64,000 bases of DNA from Blastococcus sp. TML/M2B (GTDB lineage: Bacteria; Actinomycetota; Actinomycetes; Mycobacteriales; Geodermatophilaceae). The stretch spans positions 1,240,001 through 1,304,000 of the forward strand of contig NZ_JAENZZ010000002.1 of NCBI RefSeq assembly GCF_016612865.1. The letters run 5' to 3'. How positions within the stretch are numbered: position 1 is the stretch's first letter; each line of letters begins with the position of its first letter. A model generated the notes under the pieces. It was not told where the DNA came from. It made no database searches and saw nothing but the letters and a program-made list of their open reading frames with translations. This document shows, piece after piece, positions 4,831 to 63,084 of the stretch. Made by a program: the position numbers and the translations under genes.

Positions 4831-5713
4831 GTGGCCCCTGTGCGCGCCGTCGCCGTCCTGCTGCTGCTGGCGCTCGCCGCCTGCGCCGAGCCCTCCCCCG
4901 TCGGCAGCCGGCCGCCCGACGCCGTTCCGCCACGGGCGCAGCTTCCCGCAGATCCCGGGGCGCTGGTGCTCCGCGTCGAGCAGGTGGGCATGTTCACGAC
5001 GCCGCAGGCGCTCGCCGCCCGGCTCCCGGTGGTCAGCGTCTACTCCGACGGACGGGTGGTCCTCCAGGGTCCGGTGGCGACCATCTGGCCGGCCTTCGCC
5101 TGGCCGAACGTCCAGGTGCTGGACGTCGGAGCCGTCGGAGTGCAGGAGCTGGCCGACCGGGCGCTGGCGGCCGGGGTGGCCGAGCAGGCCGACCTGGGCG
5201 TCCCGCCGCTGGCCGACGTCGGCTCCACCCGGTTCACGCTGGGCACGGCCTCGGGGACGCACGTCCGGGAGGTCTACGCCCTCCAGGGGTCCGCCGCGAT
5301 GACCGGCAGTGGTCTCACCGCGGACCAGGTGACGGCCCGCGAGCGCCTCCAGGAGTTCGTCACCGAGCTCTCCAACCTGGTGTCCGCAGGCACCCCCGAG
5401 GAGGTCCCGCGACCCTGGACCCCGGCTGCGGTGGCCGCCGTCGCCCAGCCGTGGACGGCGTCCGAGGAGGACGTCGCCCAGGGCTGGTCTCCCGAGCCCG
5501 TGCCGTGTGCCGGGCCCGCCGTTGCCCGGGGAGCCGATCGGTCCGGGCATCAGCTGCGTCGTCGCGACCGGGGAGGTCGCGGGCGACGTCATCGCGGCCG
5601 CACGGGACGCGAACGTGCTCACGCCGTGGGCCACCCCCGACGGTGCCCTGTGGTCGGTGGCGTTCCGACCGCTGCTGCCCGACGAGACCGGCTGCGCCGA
5701 CCTGACCGGCTGA
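4831..5713 (+). CDS. Putative lipoprotein, broken by one frameshift near 5513
   Basis: Starts at GTG 4831 with a clear lipoprotein signal: V-R-A-V-A-V then a Leu/Ala core and the lipobox L-A-A-C (Cys about residue 18). The first frame reads well to P-V-P-C-A-G at about 5514; the next frame continues sensibly with P-P-L-P-G-E-P-I-G and ends C-A-D-L-T-G at the TGA 5711-5713. Removing one G from the run 5512-5514 joins them into a protein of about 293 residues. No known domain is recognised; paired Cys late in the protein may form a disulphide. It faces the symporter gene convergently across a long inverted repeat. The frameshift belongs to the 500-nt-phased set and is probably not real. Confidence 0.7.
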
Positions 5714-5720
5714 CGACCTC

Positions 5721-5783
5721 GTTGATCATCGTCATCCGGTGGCCCGACATTCCGACGGGCGCAGCCGGATGACGATGATCAAC
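5721..5783. repeat. Perfect 19-bp inverted repeat between convergent genes (bidirectional terminator or dispersed palindrome)
   Basis: Bases 5721-5739 are exactly complementary to 5765-5783, with a 25-nt spacer. The arm (GTTGATCATCGTCATCCGG) is markedly AT-richer than its surroundings. It lies 7 nt past the lipoprotein stop and 5 nt before the symporter stop, so it can terminate both. The composition and long arms suggest a mobile or repeated palindromic element; copies elsewhere cannot be checked here. Confidence 0.75.
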
Positions 5784-5788
5784 AGGGG

Positions 5789-7147
5789 TCAGGCCGTGGC
5801 GGGCTGCCGCAGGTCGGCGTCCACGCCGCCGTGCTCCTCGGCCGCGGCCAGGGGCTCGACCGGGGAGGTCGCGTTGTACCGCTCGAGGTCGAGGATGCCC
5901 TCGCGCTTGGCCACGATCGTCGGCACCAGCGCCTGGCCCGCGACGTTCACCGCGGTGCGGCCCATGTCGAGGATCGGGTCGATCGCCAGCAGCAGGCCGA
6001 CGCCGGCCAGCGGGAGGCCCAGGGTCGACAGCGTCAGGGTCAGCATCACCACGGCGCCGGTGACGCCGGCCGTGGCGGCCGAGCCGATCACCGAGACCAG
6101 CGCGATGAGCAGGTAGTCGGTGATGCCGAGGTCCACGCCGAAGAACTGGGCCACGAAGATCGCCGCCAGCGCCGGGTAGATCGCGGCGCAGCCGTCCATC
6201 TTCGTCGTCGCGCCCAGAGGCACGGCGAACGAGGCGTAGGACCGCGGGACGCCGAGGTTCTGCTCGGTCACCCGCTCGGTCACCGGCAGCGTGCCGATCG
6301 AGGAGCGGGAGACGAAGGCCAGCTGGATCGCGGGCCACGCCCCGGCGAAGTACCGGACCGGCGAGAGGCCGTGCGACTTGAGCAGCACCGGGTAGACGAC
6401 GAACAGCACGAGGGCCAGGCCCGCGTAGACCGCGCCGGCGAAGACGCCGAGCGAGCCCAGGGAGTCCCAGCCGTAGCTGGCGACGGCGTTGCCGATGAGA
6501 CCGACGGTGCCGATCGGGGCCAGCAGGATGACCCACCACAGCACCTTCTGGACGATCGCCAGGGCGGAGCGGGTGAGGTTGAGGAACGGCTCGGCGGCCG
6601 GGCCGACCTTGAGGATCGCGACGCCGACGGCGGCCGAGATGACGATCAGCTGCAGCACGTTGAACGACAGGCCCACCGAGCCGTCGGCACCGGCGGAGGC
6701 CTGCAGGCCGAGGATGTTGCCGGGCACCAGGCCGGTGAGGAAGTCCCACCACCCGCCGGTCGTGCCGACGTCCTGCGCGGCGGAGGCGTCGACGGAGCTG
6801 TTGCTGCCGGGCTGGGTCAGCAGGCCCAGGCCGATGCCGATCGCGACGGCGATCAGCGCGGTGATGGCGAACCAGAGCAGCGTCTGCGCGGCCAGGCGGG
6901 CGGCGTTGGACACCTGCTTGAGGTTGGCGATCGAGACGATGACCGCGGTGACGATCAGCGCGGGCACCAGCGCCTTGAGCAGCGAGACGAAGCTGCTGCC
7001 GATGGTCTGCAGGGTGCTGGTCAGCCAGTTCGGCGAGCCGTCGGAGACGGTGCCCATCTCGCGGGCGACGAAGCCGAGGGCGACGCCGACCACGAGGGCG
7101 AGGAGGACCTGCGCGCCGAAGGGCACGCGGCGGAGACGAGCGAGCAC
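5789..7147 (-). CDS. Dicarboxylate/amino acid:cation symporter (DAACS family)
   Basis: 452 residues with about eight membrane helices plus the two re-entrant hairpins of the GltP/DctA fold. Visible signatures are S-R-S-S-I-G-T-L-P (hairpin 1), T-K-M-D-G-C (helix 7) and D-M-G-R-T-A-V-N-V-A-G-Q (helix 8). The family takes up C4-dicarboxylates or acidic/other amino acids with Na+ or H+. Compared with the well-studied N-M-D-G-T and N-V-x-G-D signatures, this protein has K-M-D-G-C and N-V-x-G-Q, so two usual Na+-site side chains differ and the coupling ion or substrate may differ too. GTG start at 7147; no clear Shine-Dalgarno. The next 170 nt upstream hold only a weak hairpin. It is a single-gene unit. 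Confidence 0.9.
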   Translation of the reverse strand: MLARLRRVPFGAQVLLALVVGVALGFVAREMGTVSDGSPNWLTSTLQTIGSSFVSLLKALVPALIVTAVIVSIANLKQVSNAARLAAQTLLWFAITALIAVAIGIGLGLLTQPGSNSSVDASAAQDVGTTGGWWDFLTGLVPGNILGLQASAGADGSVGLSFNVLQLIVISAAVGVAILKVGPAAEPFLNLTRSALAIVQKVLWWVILLAPIGTVGLIGNAVASYGWDSLGSLGVFAGAVYAGLALVLFVVYPVLLKSHGLSPVRYFAGAWPAIQLAFVSRSSIGTLPVTERVTEQNLGVPRSYASFAVPLGATTKMDGCAAIYPALAAIFVAQFFGVDLGITDYLLIALVSVIGSAATAGVTGAVVMLTLTLSTLGLPLAGVGLLLAIDPILDMGRTAVNVAGQALVPTIVAKREGILDLERYNATSPVEPLAAAEEHGGVDADLRQPATA

Positions 7148-7318
7148 GAGGGATACCGATCTACGGGAGGGAGGAGGACGCGGGAGCTGCGGGCGTCAAC
7201 AGCTCGCCGTCGTCATCCGCCCGTAGTCGAGGGCGCGCCTGCGCGTCAGGCCCCACACGTTGTGCACGGAGGGTCAAGGCCTGCGGCGGCGCGGCCATGC
7301 CCGCCTGTGCGCAGGGTC

Positions 7319-8089
7319 TCAGTCGGTCCAGACGGGCGGGCGCTTCTCGAGGAACGAGGCCATCCCCTCGCGCGCGCCGGGGATCTGGCTGGCGGCGGCC
7401 ATGACCTCGACGGCGGTGTCGTAGGCGTCTCGCTCGGGGCGGTCCAGCTGGGCGTACATCGTCTGCTTGCCCCACGCCTTGCTGGCCCGGGAGCCGCGCG
7501 TGGCCCGCGCCATCAGCTCGTCGACGGCGGCGTCCAGGTCCTCGTCGGGCACCACCCGGTTGACCAGGCCCCAGTCCAGCGCCGTCCGTGCGTCGATGAC
7601 GTCGCCGGTCAGCGCCAGCTCCATCGCCCGCTTGCGGCCGACGTTGCGGGCGATGGCCACCATCGGCGTGTGGCAGAACCAGCCGCCCTTGCCGCCGGGG
7701 GCGGCGAACCCGGCCGACTCCGCAGCGACGGCGAGGTCGCAGGACGCGACCAGCTGGCAGCCCGCGGCGGTGGCCAGCGCGTGGACCCGCGCCAGCACGA
7801 CCTGCGGGACGTCCTGGAGGGTCTGCATCAGCTCGGTGCAGAGCTTCAGCAGGCTGCGCACCTCCGGCAGCGGCCGGCCGGACACGTCGGCGAAGTCGTG
7901 CCCGGCGCTGAACACCGGCCCCTCGGCGGCGAGGACGATCCCGGCGGCGTCGCTCTCCCCCGCCGTCGTGACCGCACCCAGCAGCTGGGTCAGGTGCTCG
8001 CGCGAGAGGGCGTTCCGGCGCGCCGCCCGCACCATCGTGATGCGGACGACGTCGCCGTCGCGTTCGATCCGGGGTGCGCCGTCAGCCAT
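7319..8089 (-). CDS. Enoyl-CoA hydratase/isomerase family protein
   Basis: 256 residues, full length for the crotonase fold. The oxyanion-hole segment is F-S-A-G-H-D-F (about 67) and the second conserved turn is A-T-A-A-G-C-Q-L-V (about 112). The region G-G-K-G-G-W-F-C-H-T-P resembles the ECHDC3-like branch rather than short-chain hydratases. The canonical catalytic Glu pair is not evident: the turn has Cys-Gln and the following strand Gly-Gly-Trp. So hydration of enoyl-CoA is plausible but not assured. ATG 8089 is preceded by TAGCGT (minus strand, 8096-8101) with a 6-nt gap and no Shine-Dalgarno, suggesting a leaderless transcript. The meaA-type gene lies 18 nt upstream on the same strand. 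Confidence 0.85.
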   Translation of the reverse strand: MADGAPRIERDGDVVRITMVRAARRNALSREHLTQLLGAVTTAGESDAAGIVLAAEGPVFSAGHDFADVSGRPLPEVRSLLKLCTELMQTLQDVPQVVLARVHALATAAGCQLVASCDLAVAAESAGFAAPGGKGGWFCHTPMVAIARNVGRKRAMELALTGDVIDARTALDWGLVNRVVPDEDLDAAVDELMARATRGSRASKAWGKQTMYAQLDRPERDAYDTAVEVMAAASQIPGAREGMASFLEKRPPVWTD

Positions 8090-8107
8090 GGACCGACGCT
8101 AGACCGA

Positions 8108-10126: not shown

Positions 10127-10203
10127 ACCGGCGGAGTCTAGGGCGGTCCCGGGACGGGAGCAGCGCCGCCCGCGGGGAGGCGCACGGTGGCACACTCGAT
10201 CGG

Positions 10204-10512: not shown

Positions 10513-10525
10513 CCCGGGGGGTCAG
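10509..10525. terminator. Short palindrome containing both convergent stop codons
   Basis: CTGACCC (10509-10515) pairs with GGGTCAG (10519-10525) around GGG. The left arm contains the TGA of the small membrane protein and the right arm contains the complementary TGA of murA. The short stem makes termination uncertain. Confidence 0.4.
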
Positions 10526-11802: not shown

Positions 11803-11861
11803 CGGAACACCCTACGGCCGCGCCCGGGGAGGCTCCGTGCGCCCGCTCTACGCTGCTGGCC

Positions 11862-12476: not shown

Positions 12477-12504
12477 GCCCGCCCCTCCCCCGGCCGGCGC
12501 CGGC

Positions 12505-12906: not shown

Positions 12907-12943
12907 GGGGAGGCCGGGCGCTGCGCGGGAGGTGCGGTCGGCC

Positions 12944-15317: not shown

Positions 15318-16290
15318 TCAGTCGCCCGCGTTGGCCGAGACCAGCGCGTCGGCGCCGCCGACGATCTCGCTGATCTCCTGGGTGATCTCCGCCTGGCGGG
15401 CCTGGTTCGCCTGCCGGGACAGGTTCTTCGCCAGCTCCTCCGCGTTGTCGGAGGCCGACTTCATCGCCCGGCGGCGCGACGCCGACTCGGAGGCTGCCGC
15501 CTCGAGCATCGCCGCGTAGATCCGGGTGGTGATGTACTTCGGCAGCAGGGCGTCCAGCAGACCCTCGGCCGACGGCTCGAACTCGTAGGAGGTCGGGACG
15601 CCCGAGTCGGCGGCCGCACCGCGCTCGCGGTCCTCCCGCTCGTAGTCGAACTCCTCGACCTCCTCCACCTCCAGCGGAGCCATGCGCTTGGCGACCGGCA
15701 CCTGGGCGAGCAGCGAGCGGAACTCGGTGTAGACGATGTGCAGCTCGTCCACGCCGAGGATGCCGTCGGCACCCGCACCGCCGTCCTCGTCATCGGCACC
15801 GGCGGTGAAGACGTCGATCAGCGCGGAGCCGACCTCCTGCGCGTCCTCGTAGCCGGGCTGCTCGGAGAAGCCGGTGAACGTGGCCGCCATCTCGCGGTCG
15901 CGGAAGGAGTAGTAGGTCTCCCCCTTGCGGCCGACGACGTACAGCACCGGCTGCTTGCCCTCCTGACGGAGGAGCGCGAGCAGCTCCTCCGTCCGGCGGA
16001 GGACGTTCCACGTTGTACGAGCCGGCGAACCCGCGGTCGGAGGTGATGACCAGGACGGCGGCGCGCTGGGGGTTCTCCCGCTCTGTGAGCAGCGGGTGGT
16101 CCAACGACGCCGACGACGCCAGCGCGGAGAGGACCCGCGTGATCTCCCGGGCGTAGGGCTTGGACGCCTCGACCCGGGCCTGGGCGCGCACGATGCGGGC
16201 ACCGGCGATCAGCTCCTGAGCCGAGAAGATCTTCTTCGTCGACTGGGTGGAGCGGATGCGGCGCCGCAGGGCGCGCAGAGAGGCGGCCAC
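15318..16290 (-). CDS. atpG: ATP synthase gamma subunit, frameshifted at about 16008
   Basis: Two frames together give one complete gamma subunit of about 323 residues. The first frame (GTG 16290) reads [20 protein letters not shown] and continues to D-R-G-F-A-G-S-Y-N. The second continues [13 protein letters not shown] and runs to the C-terminal coiled-coil helix ending A-L-V-S-A-N-A-G-D. One extra base at 16008-16009 (CC) explains the break. Gamma is the rotor shaft and is essential to the enzyme, and the rest of the operon is intact, so the break is most likely a sequence error; it is one of the 500-nt-phased set. It also carries an acidic insertion ([10 protein letters not shown]) in the middle. 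Confidence 0.93.
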
Positions 16291-31803: not shown

Positions 31804-33093
31804 TGCAGACCTTCCACGCGCAGGACGCTGGTGACGCCACGGACCGCGGGCATGTCCCGCAGAGCGGCGATGGTGGCCGAGAGCGCCGCATCGGGGGCGC
31901 TGTGGGTGACGATGACCAGCGTGGCGGCGTCGCCGCGGCCGGTCTGGCGGACGGTGGAGATGCTCACCTCGTGGCGGGCGAACTCCTGCGCGACCGAGGC
32001 CAGGACACCCCGGCTTGTCGGCCACGTCGAGGCTGACGTGGTAGCGCGTCGGCGTCTCGGCCATCGGCCGGACCGGCAGGTCGGCGTAGCCGGTCGGGCC
32101 CTGGCCCGAGGCGCCGGCGACCCGGTTGCGCGCGACGGCCACGAGGTCGCCGAGCACGGCGCTGGCGGTGGGCTCTCCCCCCGCGCCCTGGCCGTAGAAC
32201 ATCAGCTGCCCGGCGGCCTCGGCCTCGACGAAGACGGCGTTGAACGCGCCGCCGACCGAGGCCAGCGGGTGGGTCGTCGGGATCATCGCGGGGTGCACGC
32301 GGACGGCGACGGAGTCCCCGTCACCGTTGGGCACCCGCTCGCAGATGGCGAGCAGCTTGACGGTGCAGCCGATCTCGGCGGCGCGCGCGACGTCGGTCGC
32401 GGAGACCGCGGAGATGCCCTCGCGGTGCACGTCGGCCGAGGAGACCGGCGTGTGGAACGCCAGCGACGCCAGGATGGCCGCCTTGGCCGCCGCGTCGAAG
32501 CCGTCGACGTCGGCGGTCGGGTCGGCCTCGGCGTACCCGAGCTCGGTGGCCTCGGCCAGCGCCTCGGCGAAGCCGGCACCGGTCTCGGCCATGCGCGACA
32601 GGATGTAGTTCGTCGTCCCGTTGACGATGCCGACGACCCGGCGGAGCTGGTCACCGGCCAGCGACTCGCGCAGCGGCCGCAGCAGCGGGATCGCGCCGGC
32701 GACGGCGGCCTCGTAGTAGAGGTCCACGCCGGCCGCCGCGGCGGCCGCGTGCAGGGCAGGGCCGTCCTCGGCCAGCAGCGCCTTGTTCGCGCTCACCACC
32801 GACTTGCCCGCCTCGAACGCCGCGAGCATCAGGCTGCGGGCCGGCTCGATGCCCCCGATGACCTCGACGACCAGGTCGACGTCGTCCCGGCGCACGAGGG
32901 CCGCGGAGTCCGTGGTCAGCAGGTGCTGCGGCACGTCGGGGTGGTGCGCGGGCCGGCGGACGGCGATGCCCACGACCTCGATTGGGCGGCCGACGCGGGC
33001 GGTGAGGTCGTCGGCCTGCTCCTCGACCAGGCGCAGGACGGCGCTGCCGACCGTGCCGCAGCCCAGCAACGCGACGCGCAGCGGCGCGCTCAC
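31800..33093 (-). CDS. hom: Homoserine dehydrogenase, frameshifted at about 32010
   Basis: Start GTG 33093 overlaps the lysA stop (GTGA). NAD(P)-binding motif G-C-G-T-V-G-S-A-V near residue 11; catalytic core N-G-T-T-N-Y-I-L (about 172) and [15 protein letters not shown]. Near residue 360 the frame reads D-V-A-D-K-P-G and then breaks. Removing one base from the run 32008-32011 restores V-L-A-S-V-A-Q-E-F and an ACT domain ending L-R-V-E-G-L-Q at the TGA that overlaps thrC, total about 430 residues. It makes homoserine for threonine and methionine; the ACT domain binds threonine as feedback signal. The break is one of the 500-nt-phased set and probably an error. Confidence 0.94.
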
Positions 33094-34584
33094 GAGCGGG
33101 CTCCGGCGGCGTGCTCGGGGGCCGGCTGGTCGGGAGCGGGCGAGGGGGCGGGCACGTCTGCGAGGACGGCGTCGAGGGCGAACACGTCGGACAGTGTCTG
33201 ACGCCGCACGATCTCGGTCGCGACGCCGTCCCGGACGGCGACCACCGGCGGCTTGAGCAGGTAGTTGTAGTTGCTCGCCATCGACCAGCAGTAGGCGCCG
33301 GTGGCGGCCACCGCGAGCAGGTCGCCGGGGGCGACGTCGGAGGGCAGCCACAGGTCCCGGACCAGGATGTCCCCGCTCTCGCAGTGCTTGCCGACGACGC
33401 GGCACAGCGCCGGCGGCGCGTCGGACGTCCGGTTGGCCAGCACGCACGTGTAGTCGGCGTCGTAGAGGGCGGTGCGGATGTTGTCGCTCATCCCGCCGTC
33501 GACGGAGACGTAGTTGCGCACGGCCGGCACCCCGGGGCCTCCCCCGGACCCGAGTCGCACCGGCTTGATGGTGCCGATCTCGTAGAGCGTGACGGTGCCG
33601 GGGCCCGCGATGGCGCGGCCGGGCTCGACCGCGAGCCGCGGCACCGGCAGCCCGAGGGCGGCGCACTCCGCGGCGACGACCGAGCGCAGCCTGGCCGCGA
33701 CGTCGCCCGGGGCGACCGGGTCGTCGTCGGCGAGGTAGGCGATGCCGAAGCCGCCGCCGAGGTTCAGCTCGCCGAGCAGCTCGCCGGTGGCCTGGTGGAT
33801 CTGGCCGAGCAGGCCGACGACGCGGTGCGCGGCGGCCTCGAAGCCGGCGGTGTCGAAGATCTGCGAGCCGATGTGGCTGTGCAGCCCGGCCAGCCGCAGC
33901 GCCGGCTCGCGGATGACCCGCACCGCGGCGGTCAGCGCGTCGCCGGTGGCCAGGGAGAAGCCGAACTTCTGGTCCTCGTGCGCGGTGGCGATGAACTCGT
34001 GGGTGTGGGCCTCGATGCCGACCGTCGACCGGATGAGCACCGGCACGGGCGCTCCCCCGGCGGCGACGCGGGCCGCGGCGAGGGGCGCGAGCCGCTCGAT
34101 CTCGTCGAACGAGTCGAGCACCACGTGCCCGATCCCGGAGTCGACGGCCAGCTGCAGCTCGACCAGCGACTTGTTGTTGCCGTGCAGCGCGATCCGCTCG
34201 GCGGGGAAGCCGGCCGCCAGCGCCAGCGCCAGCTCGTTGCCGCTGCAGGCGTCCAGGTGCAGGCCGTCGTCGGCGATCCAGCGGGCCACCTGCCCGCACA
34301 GGAACGCCTTGGACGCGTAGTGCACGTCGGCGCCGTCGAAGGCGGTCGCGAAGTCCGCGGCGCGGCCGCGGAAGTCCTCCTCGTCCAGCACGAACAGCGG
34401 GGTGCCGTGCTCGCGGGCGAGGTCGGTGACAGCTCGCCCGGCGAGGTGCAGCTCGCCGTCGACGCGGGTGGCCGAGCGCGGCCACACCTGCGGGTCCAGC
34501 GCCCCGAGCCTCCGCGGGAGGCGCGCCGGCGCCGGTCGGCTGCTGGATGCTCCCGTGCAGCGGCCCGGCCGGGTGCGCCCTCAC
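33090..34584 (-). CDS. lysA: Diaminopimelate decarboxylase, frameshifted at about 34509
   Basis: PLP fold-type III barrel plus beta domain. The PLP Lys is in [22 protein letters not shown] and the C-terminal C-E-S-G-D follow. It makes lysine from meso-DAP. The natural start is GTG 34584, overlapping the argS stop (GTGA), reading [12 protein letters not shown]; this is in a different frame from the main body, which has the family segment [12 protein letters not shown]. Removing one G at 34509-34510 joins them and gives about 497 residues. Without that correction annotation would begin at the GTG before W-P-R-S (34487). Confidence 0.93.
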
Positions 34585-36244
34585 ATCCGCTCCGGAGCGG
34601 TCACGCCGAGGACGTCCAGGCCGTTGCGCAGCACCGTCGCGGTGGCCGCGCACAGCCACAGGCGGGCGGTGGTCAGCGGGGTGACCTCCTCGTCGCCGCG
34701 CGGCAGCACGCGGCACGAGTCGTAGAACCGGTGGTAGGTGCCGGCCAACTCCTCCAGGTACCGGGCCACCCGGTGCGGGGCGCGCAGCTCGGCGGCGGCG
34801 GTGAGCACGCGCGGGAACTCGCCCAGCGCGCGCAGCAGGTCGCTCTCGCGCTGGTGCTCGAGCGCCGCGACGTCGACGTCGGCGGCCTCGCCGAGGACCA
34901 GCCCCAGGTCGGCGGCGTTGCGCAGCAGCGAGGAGATGCGGGCGTGCGCGTACTGGACGTAGAAGACCGGGTTGTCGTTGGTCTGCCGGCTCCACAGGTC
35001 GAGGTCCAGGTCGATCTGCTGGTCCACCGAGGCGCGGGCGAGGGCGTAGCGAGCGGCGTCGGCACCGACGGCCTCGACGAGGTCCTCCAGCAGGACGACG
35101 GTGCCGGCCCGCTTGCTCATCCGCACCGGCTCGCCGTCGCGGACCAGGTTGACCAGCTGGCCGAGCAGGATCTCGAGGGTGGCCTCCGGGTCGTCGCCCA
35201 CCGCGGCGGCGAGCGCCTTGTAGCGGCCGACGTAGCCGGCGTGGTCGGCGCCGAGCATGATCACGACCTTGTCGAAGCCGCGGTCGCGCTTGTCCAGGTA
35301 GTAGGCGCAGTCGGCGGCGAAGTAGGTCGGCGCGCCGTCGCTCTTGATCAGCGGGCGGTCCTTGTCGTCGCCGAAGTCCGTCGTCCGCAGCCAGACGGCG
35401 CCGTCGGCCTCGTACACGTGCCCGTTCGCGCGCAGCCGGGCGATCGCCTTGTCCAGGGCGCCGGTCTCGTGCAGGGTCCGCTCGCTGAAGTAGACGTCGA
35501 AGACGACGCCGAAGTCGGCCAGGGTGCGCTTGATCTCGGCGAACATCAGGTCGACGCCGCGGACGCGGAACCGCTCCTGCTGCTCGGCCTCGTCCCGCTC
35601 CAGCAGGCCGGGCTCGGCCGCGACCACCTGCTCGGCGATGTCGACGATGTAGTCGCCGGCGTACCCGTCCTCGGGCACCGGCCGGCCGTGGGCGGCGGCC
35701 ATGAGGCTGAGCGCGAACCTGTCGATCTGCGCACCGGCGTCGTTGAAGTAGTACTCCCGCGTGACCGAGGCCCCGCTGGCCTCCAGCAGCCGCCCCAGCG
35801 CGTCGCCGACGGCGGCCCAGCGGGTGCCGCCGATGTGCACCGGGCCGGTGGGGTTGGCCGAGACGAACTCCAGGTTCAGCTTCTGGCCGGCGAGGGCGTC
35901 GGTGCGGCCGTAGGCGGCGCCGGCGGTCACCGCCTGCACCGCGATCGTGCCGAGCACGCCCTTGGCCAGCGTGATGTTCAGGAAGCCGGGACCGGCGACG
36001 TCGACCCGCGCGCGATGCCCTCGTGCGCCCGCAGCTCCCCGGCGAGCACCTCGGCGACCTCGCGGGGCGGCCGGCCGGCGGGCTTGGCCAGCCGGAGGGC
36101 GACGTTGGTGGCGTAGTCGCCGTGCTCGGGGTTCTTCGGTCGCTCGATGACGACCTCGGCGGGCACCTCGACGGGCAGCGCGCCGCGGTCGACGACCGCG
36201 CTCACGGCGGTACGGACGACGTCCTGCAACTGCTCCGGTGTCAC
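34581..36244 (-). CDS. argS: Arginyl-tRNA synthetase, frameshifted at about 36010
   Basis: Class I synthetase of about 553 residues in two frames. The N-terminal part from GTG 36244 reads V-T-P-E-Q-L-Q and has the ADD-like domain through E-G-I-A-R; after the break the other frame continues [13 protein letters not shown]. Two extra bases in the CG-repeat 36007-36014 explain it. HIGH-type motif is P-V-H-I-G-G; KMSKS-type is R-M-S-K-R-A-G; the C-terminal anticodon domain ends A-P-E-R-M. TACGCT (36251-36256, minus strand) ends 6 nt before the start, a leaderless layout at the head of the argS-lysA-hom-thrC-thrB run. The enzyme is essential, so the break is almost surely artefactual. Confidence 0.94.
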
Positions 36245-39799: not shown

Positions 39800-41439
<1,640 letters not shown>

Positions 41440-49200: not shown

Positions 49201-49991
49201 CAACCCCAAGGCGCTGGTCCTCTGGGAGGCGCAGTTCGGCGACTTCGTCGACGGCGCCCAGATGGTCATCGACGAGTTCATCAGCTCCGGCGAGGCCAAG
49301 TGGGGCCAGCGCTCCGGCGTGGTCATGCTGCTGCCGCACGGCCTCGAGGGCCAGGGCCCGGATCACTCCAGCGGTCGCATCGAGCGCTTCCTGCAGCTGT
49401 CGGCGGAGAACAACATGACCGTCGCCAACTGCACGACGCCGGGCAACTACTTCCACCTGCTGCGCCGCCAGGCGCTCTCGGACGTGCACCGGCCGCTGGT
49501 CGTGTTCACCCCTGAAGTCGCTGCTGCGGGCCAAGGTGGCGGTCAGCCCGGTCAGCGACTTCACCGACGAGGGCTTCCGGCACGTCCTGCCCGACCCGGG
49601 CGTGGCCGGCCGGCCGCTGGACGGTGCGGCGGTGCGCCGGGTGCTGCTGTGCAGCGGCAAGGTCGCCTACGACCTGATGGCCCAGCGCGAGTCCGAGGGC
49701 TCCACCGACGTCGCCGTCGTCCGGGTCGAGCAGCTCTACCCGCTGCCCGCCCAGCAGATCGCCGAGGCGCTGGAGCAGTACCCGAACGCCACCGACGTGG
49801 TGTGGGTGCAGGAGGAGCCGGCGAACATGGGCGCCTGGCAGTTCATGGCCGTCAACCTCCCCGAGCACCTGCCCTCGGGCCGCACGTTCCGGCGGGTCAG
49901 CCGGCGCGCGTCGGCCAGCCCGGCGGTCGGCTCGGCCAAGGTGCACGACGTCGAGCAGCGCCAGCTGGTCGCCGAGGCGCTCGCGAAGTAG
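46226..49991 (+). CDS. kgd: Multifunctional 2-oxoglutarate dehydrogenase/decarboxylase (KGD/OdhA), frameshifted at 49513
   Basis: About 1254 residues. Order: short E1 N-terminal motif ([13 protein letters not shown]), Ala/Pro linker, succinyltransferase E2-type core without lipoyl domain (active [11 protein letters not shown]), then a ThDP-dependent E1 ([10 protein letters not shown] and the G-D-D-P-E-A ... N-E-G-D-D-P metal motif). In actinobacteria this fusion joins lipoylated E2/E3 and is inhibited by GarA/OdhI. The frame is intact to V-V-F-T-P; deleting the T at 49513 restores [12 protein letters not shown] and the end at TAG 49991. TAGACT at 46159-46164 is a likely -10. The break is one of the 500-nt-phased set. 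Confidence 0.95.
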
Positions 49992-50991: not shown

Positions 50992-52186
50992 TCAGACGGT
51001 GACGTGCTGCTCCCGGGCGCACGCCGCGACGGCCTCGGCGACGGCGGTCGCGACGCGGCGGTCCAGGGGGCTGGGCACGATGTACTCGGGCCGCAGGTCC
51101 TCCCCCACCACGTCGGCCAGCGCGACGGCGGCGGCCAGCTTCATCTCCTCGGTGATGCTCGTGGCACCGGCGTCGATCGCGCCGCGGAAGACGCCGGGGA
51201 AGGCGAGCACGTTGTTGATCTGGTTCGGCAGGTCGCTGCGCCCGGTGGCGACGACGGCGGCGTGCCGGGCGGCCATCGCCGGGTCGACCTCGGGGATCGG
51301 GTTGGCCAGCGAGAAGACGATCGCGTCCTCGGCCATCGCGGCGATCGACGACTCCGGCACCGAGCCGCCCGAGAGCCCCAGGTAGACGTCGGCGCCCACG
51401 AGCGCGTCGGCCATCGTCCCGGCGTGGCCGGACGGGTTGGTGTTCTCCACCAGCCACTGCTTGCTGGCGGTCAGGTCGCCCCGGCCGGCGTGCAGCAGGC
51501 CCCGGGAGTCGGCCACCACGAGCTCCCCGACGCCCGCCTCCAGCAGGATCTTGGTGCAGGCCACGCCCGCCGCGCCCGCGCCGGAGACGACGACCCGCAG
51601 GTCCGCCATCGCCCGCCCGGTCACCCGGGCCGCGTTGCGCAGGGCGGCGAGCACGACGATCGCCGTCCCGTGCTGGTCGTCGTGCATGACCGGGATGGGC
51701 AGCCGCTCGCGCAGCCGCTCCTCGATCTCGAAGCAGCGCGGCGCGCTGATGTCCTCGAGGTTGATGCCGCCGAACGAGGGGGCGATCGCCACGACGGTGT
51801 CCACGATCTCGTCGACGTCGGTGGTCGACAGCACGATCGGCACCGCGTCCAGGCCGGCGAACTCGGAGAACAGGCAGGCCTTGCCCTCCATGACCGGCAG
51901 CGCGGCCGCCGGGCCGATGTCCCCCAGCCCGAGCACCGCGGTCCCGTCGGAGACCACCGCGACCACCCGGGAGGCCCAGGTGAACCGGCGGGCCAGCGCC
52001 GGCTCCGCGTGGGATCGCGCTGGACACGCGGGCGACGCCCGGCGTGTAGGTCAGCGCGAGGTCGCCGATCGACTCGATCCGCCGGGTCGGGACGACGGAG
52101 AGCTTGCCGCCCTCGTGCACGGCGAAGGCCGGGTCGTCGGCGAAACGGTCGGGCTGGGCGTCGTCCGCACCCGGGTTGCCGCTCAT
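50992..52186 (-). CDS. NAD(P)-dependent malic enzyme, frameshifted at about 52012
   Basis: About 397 residues, the short bacterial form without the phosphotransacetylase domain. It converts malate to pyruvate and CO2. Tyr in L-T-Y-T-P-G-V (about 48), Lys/metal region with [10 protein letters not shown] and NAD(P) loop S-G-A-G-A-A-G-V-A. From ATG 52186 the frame runs to R-V-S-S-A-I; deleting one G at 52011-52013 restores [11 protein letters not shown] and joins the rest. The motif [10 protein letters not shown] and the cluster end Q-H-V-T-V are intact. The break is one of the 500-nt-phased set. Confidence 0.93.
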
Positions 52187-52842: not shown

Positions 52843-52846
52843 GCGC

Positions 52847-53759: not shown

Positions 53760-53828
53760 TCGTCTGTCCGCCCGGCGCACTACCGCGCGTGCGCCTGGGG
53801 TTCGCCCGTGCGCGGACCGGAGGACCTC

Positions 53829-55016
53829 GTGATCGACGTCGGCGCTCTGCTGGAGAAGGTGGAGAACGCGGCACCGATCGCCGCGGTCGAAGCCGTCGCC
53901 GGAGCGCTCCGCGAGATGGTCGCCGCCCGATCGGCCGCGCTGCTCATCGCCGACTTCAGCGGCCACTCCGTCGTCCGGCTGACCTCGGCAGGGCCCGTCT
54001 CCGGGGCCCGCACCCACGACGGCGAGCAGGCCGAGACCCTCCCGCTGGAGGGCACCCCGTACGACCGCGTGATCCGCACCCAGCGCGTCCACGTCGAGGA
54101 GCTCGGCGACGGCGCGCGCGTGCTGGCCCCGGTCACCGACCGCGGCGACGCCATCGGTGTCCTGGAGCTGGTCCTCCCCGGCTACCCGTCGGCGGACGAC
54201 GTCGCCGACATCGGCAGCGCGGCGCACGCCCTCGCCTACGTGGTGATCGCCGCGCGCCGGCACACCGACGTGTTCGAGTGGGGCCAGCGCTCCACCCCGT
54301 TCGCGCTGGCCGCCGAGATCCAGCGCCGGCTCCTGCCGGCCTCCTACACCTGCGAGGCCGGGCAGTTCACGCTGGCCGGCTGGCTGGAGCCGGCCGGTTC
54401 CGTCGGGGGCGACACCTTCGACTACACCCTCGAGCGCAACGCGCTGCACCTCTCCATCACCGACGCCGTCGGCCACCAGGTGGAGGCGGCGCTGCTGGCC
54501 ACCCTGCTGGTCGGCAGCCTGCGCAACGGCCGGCGGCGCGGCCTGGACCTCGCCGCGCAGGCCGCCTACGCCAACGACAGCCTGGCCGACAACTGCCTGC
54601 CCGGTCAGTTCGTCACCGGGCAGCTGCTCGACCTCGACCTGCGCACCGGCGCCGCGCGCGTCGTGAACGCCGGGCACACCCTGCCCCTGCGGCTGCGCGA
54701 CGGCCACGTCGAGGAGATCGACCTCCGCGTCGAGCCGCCGTTCGGCGTCCTGCCCGGCAAGTCCTTCCAGGTGCAGCCGTTCCCGCTGGAGCCCGGCGAC
54801 CGGATCGTCTTCCTCACCGACGGCATGCTCGAGCGCAACGCCGCCACCCTCGACGTCGCCGCTGCCCTGGCCGACAGCGCCGACCTGCACCCTCGCGAGG
54901 TCGTGCACGAGCTCGGGGGCGCCGTGCTGCGAGCCACTGGTCACGACCTCAAGGACGACGCGACGATGGTCTGCCTCGACTGGTACGGCGGCCCGCAGCG
55001 CGACCGCAGCACCTGA
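53829..55016 (+). CDS. GAF-like/PP2C (RsbU/SpoIIE-type) serine phosphatase
   Basis: 395 residues. The N-terminal ~150 residues (A-L-L-I-A-D-F-S-G-H-S; L-A-P-V-T-D-R-G-D-A-I-G-V-L-E-L) look like a GAF-type sensor. The C-terminal phosphatase has S-V-G-G-D-T-F-D-Y (metal Asp about 199), S-I-T-D-A-V-G-H-Q-V-E-A and the end D-D-A-T-M-V. It would dephosphorylate an anti-anti-sigma or similar protein in a partner-switching pathway. GTG 53829 has GGAGGA 4 nt upstream; a longer open frame in the upstream region is not coding. No anti-sigma pair is adjacent. Confidence 0.9.
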   Translation: MIDVGALLEKVENAAPIAAVEAVAGALREMVAARSAALLIADFSGHSVVRLTSAGPVSGARTHDGEQAETLPLEGTPYDRVIRTQRVHVEELGDGARVLAPVTDRGDAIGVLELVLPGYPSADDVADIGSAAHALAYVVIAARRHTDVFEWGQRSTPFALAAEIQRRLLPASYTCEAGQFTLAGWLEPAGSVGGDTFDYTLERNALHLSITDAVGHQVEAALLATLLVGSLRNGRRRGLDLAAQAAYANDSLADNCLPGQFVTGQLLDLDLRTGAARVVNAGHTLPLRLRDGHVEEIDLRVEPPFGVLPGKSFQVQPFPLEPGDRIVFLTDGMLERNAATLDVAAALADSADLHPREVVHELGGAVLRATGHDLKDDATMVCLDWYGGPQRDRST

Positions 55017-55096: not shown

Positions 55097-55764
55097 ATGC
55101 GCATCGACCGGGCCGGGTGGCCTTTCCTCACCGGACCCCTGGTCCCCGCTGCCGGCCTGCTGGCGCTGAGCCGCGTCACCGGCCGCCGCGGAGCCCGGGC
55201 GGCCGCCTGGCCGCTGCTGGGCCTGTCCGCGTACATGGCGCTGTTCTTCCGCGACCCCGACCGGCGTTGCGACGTCGAGCCGGCGGACCCGGACGAGGTG
55301 CTCTCCCCGGCCGACGGCGTGGTCATGGTCGCCGGCGAGCCGCAGGAGGGTGTCGCGCCCCCCGGCGAGTGGCAGCAGGTCAGCGTCTTCCTCTCCGTCG
55401 TCGACGTGCACGTGAACCGGTCGCCCTACCGCGGCGAGGTCGTCGAGAGCTCCTACCGGCCGGGCAGCTTCCTCGCGGCCTACCGGCGGGACTCCGCGCA
55501 CCGCAACGAGCGCTAAGCGAGCTCTGGCTCCGCGACGGCGAGCGCACCGTGGTCTTCCGGCAGATCGTCGGCGTCCTGGCGCGGCGGATCGTCACCCGCA
55601 CCGGCGTCGGTCAGCGGCTGGCCACCGGTGAGCGGATGGGCCTGATGAAGTTCGGCTCCCGGATGGACGTCTTCGTGCCGCTCGACTGCGAGCTGACCGT
55701 GACGACGGGGCAGCGCGTGCGCGGCGGCGATACCGTCATCGCCCGCTGGCCCGCCGCCCGCTGA
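55097..55764 (+). CDS. psd: Phosphatidylserine decarboxylase (short form), frameshifted at 55514
   Basis: About 221 residues over two frames. From ATG 55097 it has two membrane-associated segments, F-F-R-D-P-D-R and the active N-terminal domain V-N-R-S-P-Y-R-G, up to H-R-N-E-R, then an in-frame TAA. Deleting TA at 55514-55515 restores S-E-L-W-L-R-D-G-E-R-T and the end R-M-G-L-M-K-F-G-S-R-M-D-V-F, where the Gly-Ser bond is self-cleaved to make the pyruvoyl group. It converts phosphatidylserine to phosphatidylethanolamine. pssA follows after 8 nt. The break belongs to the 500-nt-phased set. Confidence 0.94.
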
Positions 55765-55772
55765 GGCCCCCG

Positions 55773-56570
55773 GTGCCGACGCGGCGCACCGCCACGGCCG
55801 AGTTCGTGCGCGGCTCGGTCACGGGTTCCCGGCGACGGGCCCTGGCCACCCTGCCCAGCCTGTTCACCCTCGCCAACATGGGCTGCGGCTTCGGGGCGAT
55901 CCTCGTGTCCATCCGCGGCGAGCACGGGGTGGCCGCCGTCCTCATCGGGCTGTCGGTGCTGTTCGACATCCTCGACGGCGCGGTGGCGCGCAAGGTCGGC
56001 GCCGTCACCCCGTTCGGCCTGCAGTTCGACTCGCTGGCCGACCTCGTCTCCTTCGGCCTGGCCCCGGCGCTGGTGGCCTTCACGCTCTTCTCCGAGGGCC
56101 GCGACGAGTGGGACGTGCTCGGCTGGGTGGCCTGCTTCCTGTGGGTCGCGTGCGCGGCGATCCGGCTGGCCCGGTTCAACGTGACCATCGACCCCACCGC
56201 CGACAAGCGGTACTTCACCGGCATGCCCAGCCCCGGCGCCGCCGGCGTCGTGCTGGCCTCTGTGTTCGCGTTCGGCGACCAGATGCAGGGCCGGGACCGG
56301 CTCTGGGTGCTGCTGGTCATGGCCGTGCCGGCGCTGCTGATGGTCAGCAACGTGCGCTACCGGTCGTTCCGCTCGCTGGTGAGCCCGCGCAGCGGCCGGC
56401 CGTACGGCCCGATGGCGGTGGCGCTGCTGCTCGTCGTCGCCTTCGCGCTCGCCCCGGTCCACACCGGGATCGTCCTGGCCTACGGCTACCTGTTCGCGCC
56501 GGTGCTCGTGCCGGTGCTCTCCCCGCTGGCCCGTCTGGTGCCGGCCTCGATCAAGGAGGCGCTGTCGTGA
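55773..56570 (+). CDS. pssA: CDP-diacylglycerol-serine O-phosphatidyltransferase
   Basis: 265 residues, about eight membrane helices. The CDP-alcohol phosphotransferase motif is complete: D65, D68-G-A-x-A-R73, G82, D86 and D90 in F-D-I-L-D-G-A-V-A-R ... F-G-L-Q-F-D-S-L-A-D. It makes phosphatidylserine, the substrate of the adjacent psd product. The N-terminus is Arg/Thr-rich and cytoplasmic. GTG 55773; the stop overlaps the next gene as GTGA. Confidence 0.95.
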   Translation: MPTRRTATAEFVRGSVTGSRRRALATLPSLFTLANMGCGFGAILVSIRGEHGVAAVLIGLSVLFDILDGAVARKVGAVTPFGLQFDSLADLVSFGLAPALVAFTLFSEGRDEWDVLGWVACFLWVACAAIRLARFNVTIDPTADKRYFTGMPSPGAAGVVLASVFAFGDQMQGRDRLWVLLVMAVPALLMVSNVRYRSFRSLVSPRSGRPYGPMAVALLLVVAFALAPVHTGIVLAYGYLFAPVLVPVLSPLARLVPASIKEALS

Positions 56571-57025
56571 CGGTGCGACCCATCCGGCCCGGCGACGTCC
56601 CCGCGGCCGTGGGGCTGGTGCGCGAGCTGGCGGACTACGAGCGGGCCCTGCACGAGGTGCGCCTCACCGAGGAGCAGCTCACCGCGTGCCTCTTCGGCGA
56701 GGCCCCCGCGCTGTTCGGCCACGTCGCCGAGGACGACGAGGGCCGCGTCGTCGGCCTCGCGCTGTGGTTCCTCAACTTCTCCACGTGGCGCGGCACGCAC
56801 GGCATCTACCTCGAGGACCTCTACGTGCAGCCCGCCCAGCGCGGCCGCGGGCTGGGCCGCGCGCTGCTGAGCACGCTGGCCGCGGTCTGCGTGGAGCGCG
56901 GCTACTCGCGGCTGGAGTGGTCGGTGCTGGACTGGAACACCCCGTCGATCGAGTTCTACCGCGCGGCCGGTGCCGTCCCGATGGACGACTGGACGGTCTT
57001 CCGGCTGACCGACGACGCGCCCTGA
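56567..57025 (+). CDS. GNAT N-acetyltransferase (diamine/thialysine-acetyltransferase-like)
   Basis: 152 residues. Acetyl-CoA site Q-R-G-R-G-L-G-R-A-L-L (about 90) after the typical L-E-D-L-Y-V-Q; F-L-N-F-S-T-W-R-G and W-S-V-L-D-W-N-T-P resemble spermidine/spermine and thialysine acetyltransferases. Substrate unproven. GTG 56567 overlaps pssA (GTGA) and has AAGGAGG 8 nt upstream, one of the strongest ribosome sites in the window, located inside pssA. Confidence 0.92.
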   Translation: MTVRPIRPGDVPAAVGLVRELADYERALHEVRLTEEQLTACLFGEAPALFGHVAEDDEGRVVGLALWFLNFSTWRGTHGIYLEDLYVQPAQRGRGLGRALLSTLAAVCVERGYSRLEWSVLDWNTPSIEFYRAAGAVPMDDWTVFRLTDDAP

Positions 57026-57096
57026 CCGCCTTCGCCGCCCCGCGGTAGACCGGTCACGGGAGGCCCGGCCACCCCGCAGGGCCTAGCGTGACCGCC

Positions 57097-57879: not shown

Positions 57880-57882
57880 ACC

Positions 57883-58353: not shown

Positions 58354-58443
58354 GACGGCGAGGTTACGCGGGCCCCGCGGGCCGGTCCGCCGGTTGCGCA
58401 CACCTCCCACGCGGGCCGGGTGCCCGGAGCTAGCCTGGTGGTC

Positions 58444-59403: not shown

Positions 59404-59701
59404 CGGCTCCCTGGCAGTAAACGTCGCCGAGCGCATGGTGCCTCGCCCTGCCGAGTGGCGGGCCTATCACGAGCGTGGTGAGGTTGCTCACGCGGGGGTC
59501 GGCACTGGCCTCGTTTCTGCTTGACAGTCGCCGCCCGCGTGAAAGCATCGCTGCAGGAACGCAACCTGCCGGTAACACAGCAGGCAGTCACTGCCGCAAG
59601 GCGCTGGAGACCCCGGTGTCGGCCCGGTGGCGTCGGCCCGGCCGCAGGCCGGGCCAGCGACTGACCTAGAAACCGTAGACGACACCGAGGAGAACACCGC
59701 C
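59404..59701 (+). promoter_or_regulatory. 298-nt intergenic region upstream of whiB1
   Basis: No gene is visible. It contains a CRP-type site (59478-59491), TTGACA (59521-59526) as a possible -35, and a leader of more than 130 nt with AT-richer patches. No convincing TANNNT -10 stands at the ideal distance. Long regulated leaders are usual for whiB1. Confidence 0.6.
59478..59491. promoter_or_regulatory. CRP-type cAMP receptor protein site
   Basis: GTGA-GGTTGC-TCAC is the exact GTGA-N6-TCAC core bound by actinobacterial CRP, and the outer palindrome GTGAG/CTCAC is perfect. It lies about 30 nt upstream of TTGACA (59521). In M. tuberculosis whiB1 is controlled by the CRP Rv3676 through such a site. 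Confidence 0.65.
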
Positions 59702-59953
59702 ATGGACTGGCGCCACCGCGCGCTCTGCCGGGACGAGGATCCGGAGCTGTTCTTCCCGATCGGGACGGCCGGCCCGGCCGTCGTCCAGATCGAGCAGGCC
59801 AAGGCCGTGTGCCAGCGTTGCCCCGTCGTGACGTCGTGCCTGGACTGGGCGCTCAGCTCGGGCCAGGACTCCGGCGTCTGGGGCGGCCTGTCCGAGGACG
59901 AGCGGCGGGCGCTCAAGCGCCGCCAGGCTCGCACCCGGGTCCGCACCGCCTGA
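59702..59953 (+). CDS. whiB1: WhiB1-type iron-sulfur transcription factor
   Basis: 83 residues. [4Fe-4S] ligands C9, C37, C40 and C46 (C-x2-C-x5-C) have the same numbering as M. tuberculosis WhiB1. The turn G-V-W-G-G and the basic tail R-R-A-L-K-R-R-Q-A-R form the SigA-binding/DNA-binding part. WhiB1 is an essential, NO-sensitive partner of SigA. Start M-D-W-R-H matches the family; the Shine-Dalgarno AGGAG lies about 11 nt upstream. pdtaS is convergent, then a TB7.3-like gene, the order of Rv3219-Rv3220c-Rv3221c. Confidence 0.96.
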   Translation: MDWRHRALCRDEDPELFFPIGTAGPAVVQIEQAKAVCQRCPVVTSCLDWALSSGQDSGVWGGLSEDERRALKRRQARTRVRTA

Positions 59954-59996
59954 CCGCCAGCAGCACCGGCCGCGCCGCGGCCACACCGATCGCCTC

Positions 59997-60029
59997 GAGG
60001 CCGGTCCGGGATCCCCCGGGGCCGGCCTC
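59997..60029. terminator. Hairpin between whiB1 and pdtaS
   Basis: GAGGCCGG (59997-60004) pairs with CCGGCCTC (60022-60029), with an inner CCGGG/CCCGG stem. It lies between two convergent genes and can serve both. Confidence 0.6.
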
Positions 60030-60047
60030 AGCGCCGTCCCGGGCGGG

Positions 60048-61533
60048 TCAGCGGCGCGGCAGGCCCGCGCCGGGCAGCGTCAGCACGACCTCGGTCCCCC
60101 GCCCCGCCGGGGGGACGGTCGTGCGCAGGCCGCCCCCCAGCTCGCTCTCCACGAGCGTGCGCACGATCTGCAGGCCCAGCCCCTCGCTGACCGACGGGTC
60201 GAACCCCGCCGGCAGGCCGCGGCCGTCGTCGCGCACCCGCACCACGAGGTCGTCCCCGGTCCGCTCGGCGAGCAGCTCGATCGAGCCGGGCTCCCCCTCC
60301 GGGAAGGCGTGCTCGGCGGCGTTGTGCAGCAGCTCGGTCACCGCGAGGACCAGCGGCGTCGCCGTCGCCGCCGGGAGCTCGCCGAACGAGCCGGTCCGGC
60401 GGGTGCGCGCCGCCGGCCCCACCGAGGTGAGGTCGCCGAGCATGGGCAGCACCTGGTCCAGCACCTGGTCGACGTCGACGACGTCCTCCCGGCTTCCGGC
60501 CAGCGTCTCGTGCACCAGGGGCGATGGAGGCCACCCGGCGCACCGACTCCTCCAGCGCCTCCCGCGCGGCCGGCACGGTCATCCGGCGGGCCTGCAGGCG
60601 CAGCAGCGCGGCGACGGTCTGCAGGTTGTTCTTCACGCGGTGGTGGATCTCGCGGATCGTCGCGTCCTTGCTGAGCAGCGCGCGGTCCCGGCGGCGGACG
60701 TCGGTGACGTCGCGCACCAGCACCAGCGCACCCTCCTCCGCGCCCGGCGCCTGCAGGGGCAGCGCGCGCACGAGCACCGTCGCGCCGGCGGCCTCGACGT
60801 CCATCGGGTCGGGGAACCCCCCGGCGACCGCCGCCGCGATGCCCGCCGCCACCTCCTCGCCCACGACCCGCTCGCGCGCCGCCGACCGGGTGACCTCGGC
60901 CAGGTCGCGGCCGACCACGTCCCCCGCCACGCCGATCCGCCGGTAGGCCGACAGCGCGTTGGGGCTGGCGTAGACGACGCGGCCCCGGGCGTCGAGCCGC
61001 AGCAGTCCGTCGCCCACGCGAGGGCTCATCTCGGCGTCCTGGAGCTTCTCCGGTGGGAACGTGCCCGCGGAGATCATCAGGCAGAGGTCGCCGGCGATGT
61101 CGAGGTAGGTGTGCTCGAGGGTGGAGGGCGCGCGGGTCACCGCCAGGTTGGTGTCCCGGGCCAGCACGGCGACCACGACGCCGTCGTGGCGGACCGGGAC
61201 CACCTCGCGCCGGCGGGGAGCGGGCCCCGACCAGTCGGGCGCCCCCTCGGTCACCGGCCGTCCCCTGCCGTAGGCCGACCGGAACGGCCCTGCCTCCTCC
61301 CCCGCGACCTCGGTGCCGACGAGGTCCTCCGGGCGGCAGGTCGGCGCCGTGAGCGGCCGCACCTGCGCCACGCACCACCACGAGCCCGGCTGCGGCAGGG
61401 GTACCCAGAGCGTCAGGTCGGCGAAGGAGAGGTCGGCCAGCAGCTGCCAGTCGGCGACCAGCCGGCGGCAGTGGTCGACCTGGGCCGGGTCGGAGGCCGT
61501 GCCACGGGTCAGGCGCTCGGAGAGGCTGTTCAT
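60048..61533 (-). CDS. pdtaS: Sensor histidine kinase PdtaS (HisKA_2), frameshifted at about 60520
   Basis: About 494 residues when joined. From ATG 61533: GAF-type domain (about 1-150), PAS domain (about 170-280, G-L-L-R-L-D-A-R-G-R-V-V-Y), HisKA_2 with the phosphorylated His in I-R-E-I-H-H-R-V-K-N-N-L-Q, then the ATPase (N-A-A-E-H-A-F; D-D-G-R-G-L-P; G-L-G-L-Q). PdtaS pairs with the RNA-binding antiterminator PdtaR, which is not in view; in mycobacteria the system responds to NO, copper and ribosome stress. The frame breaks after R-R-V-A-S-I-A; dropping one base at 60518-60521 restores L-V-H-E-T-L-A-G. One of the 500-nt-phased breaks. Confidence 0.94.
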
Positions 61534-61597
61534 GGTGCGACCGAGCGTAGAGAAGGCGCACCGCGGGGACGGCGCACCGCCTCCTACGCTGCTCGGT

Positions 61598-62104
61598 GTG
61601 GCCGACTCCCCCGCACCCCCCGCCGTCCGGATCGAGCCCGCCACCCCGGCGGACCACGCCGCCATCGCGGAGCTCACCGTGTCGGTGTACATCGACGGGG
61701 AGCTGGCCGGCCCGAGCTACACCCCCGAGCTGGCCGACGTCGCCGGCCGGGCCGACCGCGCCGAGCTGCTGGTCGTGCGCGACGACGACGGCCGGGTGGT
61801 CGGCAGCGTCGCGCTCGTGCTGTCCGGCGACTTCGGCGAGGTCACCGAGTCCGACGACGAGGCCGCCGTGCGGATGCTCGTGGTCGACCCGGCCGCGCAG
61901 GGCCGCGGCATCGGCGAGCTGCTGATGACCGACTGCCTGCGCCGGGCACGGGCGGCGGGCAAGCGCCGGATGGTGCTCTCCACCGGACCGAAGATGCTCG
62001 CGGCGCACCGCCTCTACGAGCGGATGGGCTTCACCCGGCTGCCGGAGCGGGACTGGACGCCGGTCCCCGGCATCGACCTGCTGGTCTACGCCCTCGACCT
62101 CTGA
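61598..62104 (+). CDS. GNAT N-acetyltransferase
   Basis: 168 residues. The acetyl-CoA motif is V-D-P-A-A-Q-G-R-G-I-G-E-L-L (about 105-118) and the end of the fold has A-A-H-R-L-Y-E-R-M-G-F. Substrate unknown. GTG 61598 is chosen because TACGCT (61585-61590) ends 7 nt upstream and no Shine-Dalgarno is present, the leaderless layout; it is divergent from pdtaS. Confidence 0.92.
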   Translation: MADSPAPPAVRIEPATPADHAAIAELTVSVYIDGELAGPSYTPELADVAGRADRAELLVVRDDDGRVVGSVALVLSGDFGEVTESDDEAAVRMLVVDPAAQGRGIGELLMTDCLRRARAAGKRRMVLSTGPKMLAAHRLYERMGFTRLPERDWTPVPGIDLLVYALDL

Positions 62105-62111
62105 GGGCGGC

Positions 62112-63084
62112 TCAGCGGTCCAGCCACGGGAAGCCGAGGCCGAACCTCTGCCCGGGCCCACCGCGGACGACCGACGAGCAGTTCCCGTCGTCGACGGTCA
62201 CCGCGCGGCGGGTGCCGGTCCGGTCCTCGACGACGGCGGTGTGCACCGGCTCCTCGCTGGCCCCGCAGTCCGCGATGGCCCCGAGGATGCCGTGCATCCC
62301 GATGCGGACGCGCTCGGCCTCGCCCTCGGTCAGCTCCCGCAGCACGGGCTCGCTGCTGCCGGGCGACCACGTGCAGACGATTCCGCGCACCGCCGTCAGC
62401 GGCAGGACCATCGGGGCCCGCATCCCCGCGGCGTAGCCGGTGTCGAGGGACGCCGACGCGCCGTCCCGGTCCACGGCCGAGGGGTCTTCCGGGTCCTCCG
62501 GGCACACGAGCGGCGTCCCCGGCCGGGGCGTCCTCGAACCGGTCGGCGTACTGGCGCCCGAACGCCGTCATCAGCAGCCCGTACACCCCCAGCCCGTCGG
62601 GCCCGCCGACCCCCGCGCCGGTCCCGGGGAACCGTCCCACGCAGTCGGGATCGGTCGCACCGACGATCGTCGTCACGCCGCCGTCCGCATAGCCGATCTG
62701 GACCTCGTAGGTGCGTCCGTCGGCCAGCAGGGGTGCCGCGCCCTCGTCGTAGGAGGAGAGGTGGCAGGGCCACCCCGCGGGCACGTCCTCCGCGTCGCGC
62801 TCCGCGAGGCCGGCGAGCAGCTCCAGGTGCGAGGTCAGCGCGTCCGACGGCACCTCGGCGGGCAGCAGGTGCCGCTCCGGTCCGGGGCAGAAGCGCGCCC
62901 AGACCGGCGTGCCCTCGACGCTCCCCCGCGTCGCCTCGGCGGGATCGAGGCACGCGGCCGGGCCCGCATCCGGAGCCGCCTCCGGGGGCGCGCCGTCCGC
63001 GGCCGTGCAGGCCGAGGTCGCCAGGCAGGCGAGGGTTCCGGCGAGGACGGCGAGGCGGCGCACCGCCGCATCATGCCCGGTCAC
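62112..63084 (-). CDS. Putative lipoprotein, frameshifted at about 62518
   Basis: About 323 residues once joined. The signal is V-R-R-L-A-V-L-A-G-T-L-A-C-L followed by the lipobox A-T-S-A-C (Cys about 26). The exported part has several Cys (W-P-C-H, D-P-D-C, V-C-P-E, D-C-G, N-C-S) that could form disulphides. The frame is good to D-A-P-A-G; deleting one base of the run 62517-62520 restores T-P-L-V-C-P-E-D-P and the C-terminus P-W-L-D-R. No known domain. Same size class and break type as the 4831-5713 lipoprotein. Confidence 0.75.

Follow-up and report, generated by a model that had tools for sequence, protein, structure and literature searches.

The frame breaks that interrupt eleven genes in this stretch of DNA are almost certainly assembly errors left by block-wise consensus polishing as such. 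They represent an artefact of a kind already known, residing in the assembly rather than in the biology. The preliminary description of this DNA had proposed a fixed-block consensus artefact, and that proposal is borne out by a period of 500 bases, anchoring at the contig starts, insertions at block junctions, intact frames in relatives, and lack of the signal in the sampled parts of five relatives. On this evidence, none of the eleven genes warrants a label of pseudogene or programmed frameshift.

Results

Frame breaks in the window and their counterparts in relatives

The assembly (G000) comprises 4,114,186 bases in four contigs (C1 to C4). The window, that is, the whole stretch of 64,000 nucleotides analyzed, is G000:C2:1240001-1304000, with a GC content of 74.3%; given this start, a 500-base grid is common to window and contig. 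Among named sequences, its atpD matched best, by protein identity, with Blastococcus sp. KM273128 (96%), Geodermatophilus sabuli (93%), and Modestobacter altitudinis (92%), which marks the genome as one of the Geodermatophilaceae. These are inhabitants of soil and stone, not pathogens of humans, animals, or crops. Syntenic DNA from three genus relatives, G009, G001, and G016, was compared (identity to G000 in HSPs longer than 800 nt: 76-91%, 84-88%, and 74-88%, respectively), and the proteins called in these relatives were run by tblastn, at an identity cut of 55%, against a 184-kb segment of G000 that contains the window.

Eleven frameshifts, all of them net insertions, had been described, and this was confirmed at 11 of 11 sites: nucleotide alignments to the relatives place a one- or two-base insertion at each, net +1 or +2. 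At ten of them, proteins of G009, G001, and G016 switch frame at the identity cut used. The eleventh, near 5,510, was missed at first because its first HSP (54.3% identity) lay under the cut; once this was dropped, the G009 and G016 proteins switched frame there, the latter at 5,505-5,510. At nine of the eleven sites, the insertion is seen against two or more relatives with no exception among them; for 5,512 and 62,517, the nucleotide-level alignment is to G009 only. Comparison with relatives also located four further grid insertions, near window positions 9, 55,014, 57,021, and 59,518. The frame breaks and insertions are as follows.

5..14, forward strand: grid insertion, net +1, against two relatives; reference-free call at 11; absent from the preliminary description
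5505..5526, forward strand: putative lipoprotein gene, +1 frame switch; G009 and G016 proteins, nucleotide alignment
16007..16009, reverse strand: atpG (F1 ATP synthase gamma), +1 frame switch; tblastn and nucleotide alignments
32008..32010, reverse strand: hom (homoserine dehydrogenase), +1 frame switch; tblastn and nucleotide alignments
34508..34510, reverse strand: 5′ part of lysA (diaminopimelate decarboxylase), +1 frame switch; tblastn and nucleotide alignments
36006..36011, reverse strand: argS (arginyl-tRNA ligase), +2 frame switch; tblastn and nucleotide alignments
41009..41012, reverse strand: ABC-F-like ATPase gene, +2 frame switch; tblastn and nucleotide alignments
49511..49516, forward strand: kgd (multifunctional oxoglutarate decarboxylase), +1 frame switch; tblastn and nucleotide alignments
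52008..52013, reverse strand: malic enzyme gene, +1 frame switch; tblastn and nucleotide alignments
55012..55016, forward strand: +1 grid insertion at the 3′ terminus of called gene 53808-55016; absent from the preliminary description
55513..55516, forward strand: psd (phosphatidylserine decarboxylase), +2 frame switch; tblastn and nucleotide alignments
57019..57024, forward strand: +2 grid insertion at the 3′ terminus of called gene 56567-57025; absent from the preliminary description
59516..59520, no strand assigned: +1 grid insertion where no gene is called; absent from the preliminary description
60518..60521, reverse strand: pdtaS (sensor kinase, PdtaS GAF domain), +1 frame switch; tblastn and nucleotide alignments
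62510..62520, reverse strand: gene without a Pfam or NCBIfam match, +1 frame switch; described earlier as a second lipoprotein, a label that is unconfirmed

Most of the gene names given earlier agree with family matches. The relatives' copies of atpG, hom, lysA, argS, and kgd exceed NCBIfam cut-offs, and psd (G001 copy), the malic enzyme, and the PdtaS-GAF kinase exceed Pfam cut-offs. The ABC-F-like protein has two ABC_tran stretches and reaches a score of 360 with the nearest NCBIfam ABC-F model, whose cut-off is 380. Neither of the two genes called lipoproteins (5,512 and 62,517) matched a Pfam or NCBIfam family; judged by eye, the G009 copy of the first has a lipobox-like N-terminus, and that label is kept as putative.

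In the window region, tblastn gave 15 clusters of frame switches, 14 at grid sites and one off the grid at 7,496. Cluster midpoints lay -23 to +47 from the grid owing to HSP overlap, and the nucleotide alignments sharpen these positions. The off-grid cluster was rejected as a window defect, since G001 has a broken copy of the gene, which the window, G009, and G016 carry in frame. Clusters in the relatives themselves numbered one in G009, one in G001, and two in G016; the single cluster of G009 and one of the two in G016 both arose from the broken G001 query. Contig C32 of G001 carries its own frame shift in the gene matched at about 7496 of the window.

The breaks follow a 500-base grid

Phasing of the breaks to a 500-nt grid, as first described, was upheld. 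The eleven positions, taken as the preliminary description gives them, span 11 nt modulo 500, or 0.022 of the period; the smallest span at the best of all periods (100-3000) among 2,000 random sets was 0.215. A scan of periods from 20 to 3000 ranked 500 first (R 0.80), followed by its divisors 250, 125, and 100.

A reference-free detector, namely a codon-usage Viterbi model permitting frame skips, was applied to 979,094 bases drawn from the four contigs (4,114,186 bases in all) and to 580,000 bases from five relatives. The models used for gene calling were trained from atpD; models from the longest open reading frames had tracked the antisense strand and were discarded. In G000, 141 single-base frame-shift calls were obtained, 121 of them at most 40 bases from a multiple of 500 and 20 more than 40 nt off the grid (Rayleigh p about 2e-40 at period 500). 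The 20 may include true pseudogenes, mobile DNA, errors of the detector, and errors from an older round. Across the 580 kb of the five relatives, none of 13 single-base calls lay within 40 bases of the grid. Two-base calls were weakly phased in G000 (34/126 within 40 nt, about 20 being expected by chance) and not phased in the relatives (6/51), and many may be native gene overlaps; the claim therefore rests on the single-base calls. Within the window, the detector overlooked 34,509 and 55,514 and put 5,512 about 20 nt early.

Folding the alignments modulo 500 gave the same picture for insertions of 1-2 nt. The bin 0-25 held 33 insertions against G009 (3-13 in the other 19 bins), 22 against G001 (others 0-13), and 20 against G016 (others 2-12). 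A deletion peak was sought at the grid, and none was found: bin 0-25 held 11, 2, and 4 deletions against G009, G001, and G016, where the other bins held 2-15, 1-10, and 4-13. Nor was there a clear excess of mismatches at the grid, with 124, 121, and 169 per kb against G009, G001, and G016, and 106-133, 106-131, and 141-169 in the other bins, the G016 grid bin tying the highest. Insertions seen consistently against all aligned relatives, two or more in each case, numbered 36, and 14 of these fell in bin 0-25, 13 of them inside the window. With 152 junctions covered, the junction error rate is 14/152, or about one in eleven (about 9%), about one chance event included.

A script flagged seven of the 14 grid insertions as copying the adjacent base or pair and seven as not doing so; raw-read insertions might behave in this way. 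Ordinary homopolymer indel errors of long reads are likewise indels of one or two bases that break genes. However, sequence context governs those errors, not a coordinate grid, and half of the 14 grid insertions here are flagged as not copying their neighbor.

The frames are really broken in the G000 sequence, as true pseudogenes or a mutator lineage would have it. However, the genes with the breaks read as a single frame in the three relatives compared, the affected set includes argS and atpG, which are usually essential, and the positions follow a 500-base grid from the contig starts, a grid that no mutation process knows. Hence, we consider decay of these genes exceedingly improbable. Programmed ribosomal frameshifting in many genes would suit switches that lie within otherwise conserved genes, but the same proteins are encoded in one frame in the relatives, so the shift is not conserved, and the grid has no biological meaning. 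Furthermore, the grid insertions occur irrespective of coding status, although the cases are few: that at 59,518 lies outside called genes, and two others lie at gene ends. Recoding on this scale can be dismissed even more firmly than gene decay. Block-wise polishing accounts for the contig-anchored positions and the intact frames of the relatives alike, and the earlier rejection of both biological readings was sound.

The grid is counted from the contig starts and wanders along them

At the contig starts (first 40 kb of C1, C2, and C3; the whole 35 kb of C4), 6/8, 6/7, 2/3, and 6/8 single-base calls were no more than 12 nt from the grid on C1, C2, C3, and C4, respectively. Alignments show extra bases at C1 15,003 and 17,004 against four relatives each, and at C2 12,500 and 18,508 against one relative each, with 17,004 and 18,508 lying in poorly matching sequence. 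The phase is near 0 at every contig start and wanders thereafter, which indicates that the count began at the first base of each draft contig; later indels displace the grid from draft coordinates.

The preliminary description had raised the question of a common phase across the whole contig, and the grid was indeed found in samples of all four contigs, its phase wandering. On C2, the median phase ranged from -3 to +37.5, standing at +37.5 at 610 kb, at -3 to 0 at 1.6-1.8 Mb, and at +8.5 at 2.03 Mb. On C1, it fell to -22 at 510 kb and climbed to +36 at 1.6 Mb, and on C3 it reached -16. These medians are based on the calls no further than 45 nt from the grid (122/141); several represent one or two calls, and three pieces had none. 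Thus, the slow upward drift noted earlier is real locally, but along the contigs the median phase rises and falls. Its attribution to accumulated insertions fails, because the phase steps across the 7,640 junctions tracked add up to 26.5, where accumulation would have given 914-1,146 bases.

The variance of the phase steps was 0.40 per junction, and 0.35 is predicted (2 x 0.092 x 1.9) if each round adds new junction errors and removes old ones. The values used here for insertion length, a mean of 1.25-1.3 and a mean square of 1.9, are estimates from the small multi-relative insertion set, and the two-round model was fitted post hoc to the same data. A variance near the add-new, remove-old value together with a mean near zero points to two or more rounds of polishing, which we regard as quite probable. 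A single round, its length change offset by unrelated deletions elsewhere, seems improbable to us. The phase walk by itself does not identify the origin of the negative steps, and other balanced corrections could yield the same walk; however, insertions alone from a single round would have given the same large excess in length that was not seen, and the variance agrees with addition and removal.

Discussion

Taken together, our observations suggest the following course of events. Almost certainly, polishing went through each draft contig in successive 500-base blocks that began at its first base, and the joined consensus was left with one or two extra bases at roughly every eleventh junction; the grid, its anchoring, the rate, and the restriction to insertions are all observed. 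Possibly, a base at either end of a block consensus escapes the down-voting applied to inner bases, and read-like insertions would therefore survive at block ends. Each round would repair the junction errors of the previous one, whose junctions had moved by some bases, and add fresh errors at its own junctions. Repair and new errors would together leave a net length change near zero and turn the phase into a random walk.

Blocks of 500 bases are the default of Racon and of PacBio Quiver/Arrow, the latter using reference chunks of that size. We infer that the responsible program was probably Racon, alone or within an assembler that uses it. A different 500-base block process, for instance a custom pipeline that works in chunks or the reference chunks of Quiver/Arrow, is unlikely, though a little less so than a single round of polishing. 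The sequence establishes the grid and its anchoring alone, not the program; against this alternative, a literature search found window-end indels acknowledged in print for Racon only, and none of the papers listed for Quiver and Arrow showed the term "500 bp window" in its listing.

One passage in print acknowledges erroneous indels at the window ends of Racon (PMC11092452), and another describes how Racon cuts contigs and reads into non-overlapping windows (PMC11232133). VeChat is described as using 500 bp non-overlapping windows, with citation of its reference 15, which is Racon (PMC9636371). The artefact described in the Racon passage resembles ours in that small erroneous indels occur at the ends of fixed polishing windows. 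In contrast to our finding, it was avoided there by a larger window, while here about 9% of junctions retain an insertion; the phase track measured along contigs is also a feature of the present case and not of that passage (PMC11092452). The text on CONSENT explains that its windows overlap because the extremities of a window might lack a consensus; the weakness of consensus at block ends is shared, but there it concerns missing consensus in read correction and here surplus bases in contigs (PMC7804095).

Scaled to the whole genome, the single-base calls near the grid (121 per 979,094 bases, a few of them by chance) correspond to about 500 detectable single-base coding shifts. The alignments correspond to about 700 junction insertions (14/152 less about 1.2 expected by chance, over some 8,228 junctions). 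Junction errors in this genome thus probably number some 500-700. The completeness of G000 is 96.76, and 17 genus relatives score higher, at 97-100 (rounded); polishing errors could be behind the lowered score. Pseudogenes, split genes, and missing functions on the 500-base grid of this assembly are not to be believed.

Since the frame-shift test needs no reads, it could flag other assemblies. It is an even prospect, in our estimate, that the phase of frame shifts serves as a fingerprint of polishing, giving block size, origin, and probably round count from sequence alone, and that scanning could expose many affected public genomes. If this is true, a scan of public long-read genomes could reveal many with hundreds of false pseudogenes.

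Additional observations

Several frame-shift calls off the grid lie in C2 at 200-220 kb and near its end (G000:C2:200001-220000 and C2:2031000-2038000). The stretches C2:200001-220000, C3:1-20000, and C4:20001-35094 have a lower GC content (0.70-0.715) and a low coding density in the model (0.59-0.75), and are perhaps mobile DNA.

A dispersed repeat about 80-120 nt long, palindromic and folding into two hairpins, was also noted, for example at L118:14602-14681 (G000:C1), where ARAGORN detected no tRNA. It gave 28 BLAST rows in 979 kb of G000, corresponding to fewer places as the palindrome can match on both strands, and two rows in 100 kb of G008; the samples of G009, G001, G016, and G017 contained none. 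A whole-genome search nevertheless gave short matches, many of them in G001 and G014 and a single one in G009. This repeat may be a REP-like element or a bidirectional terminator.
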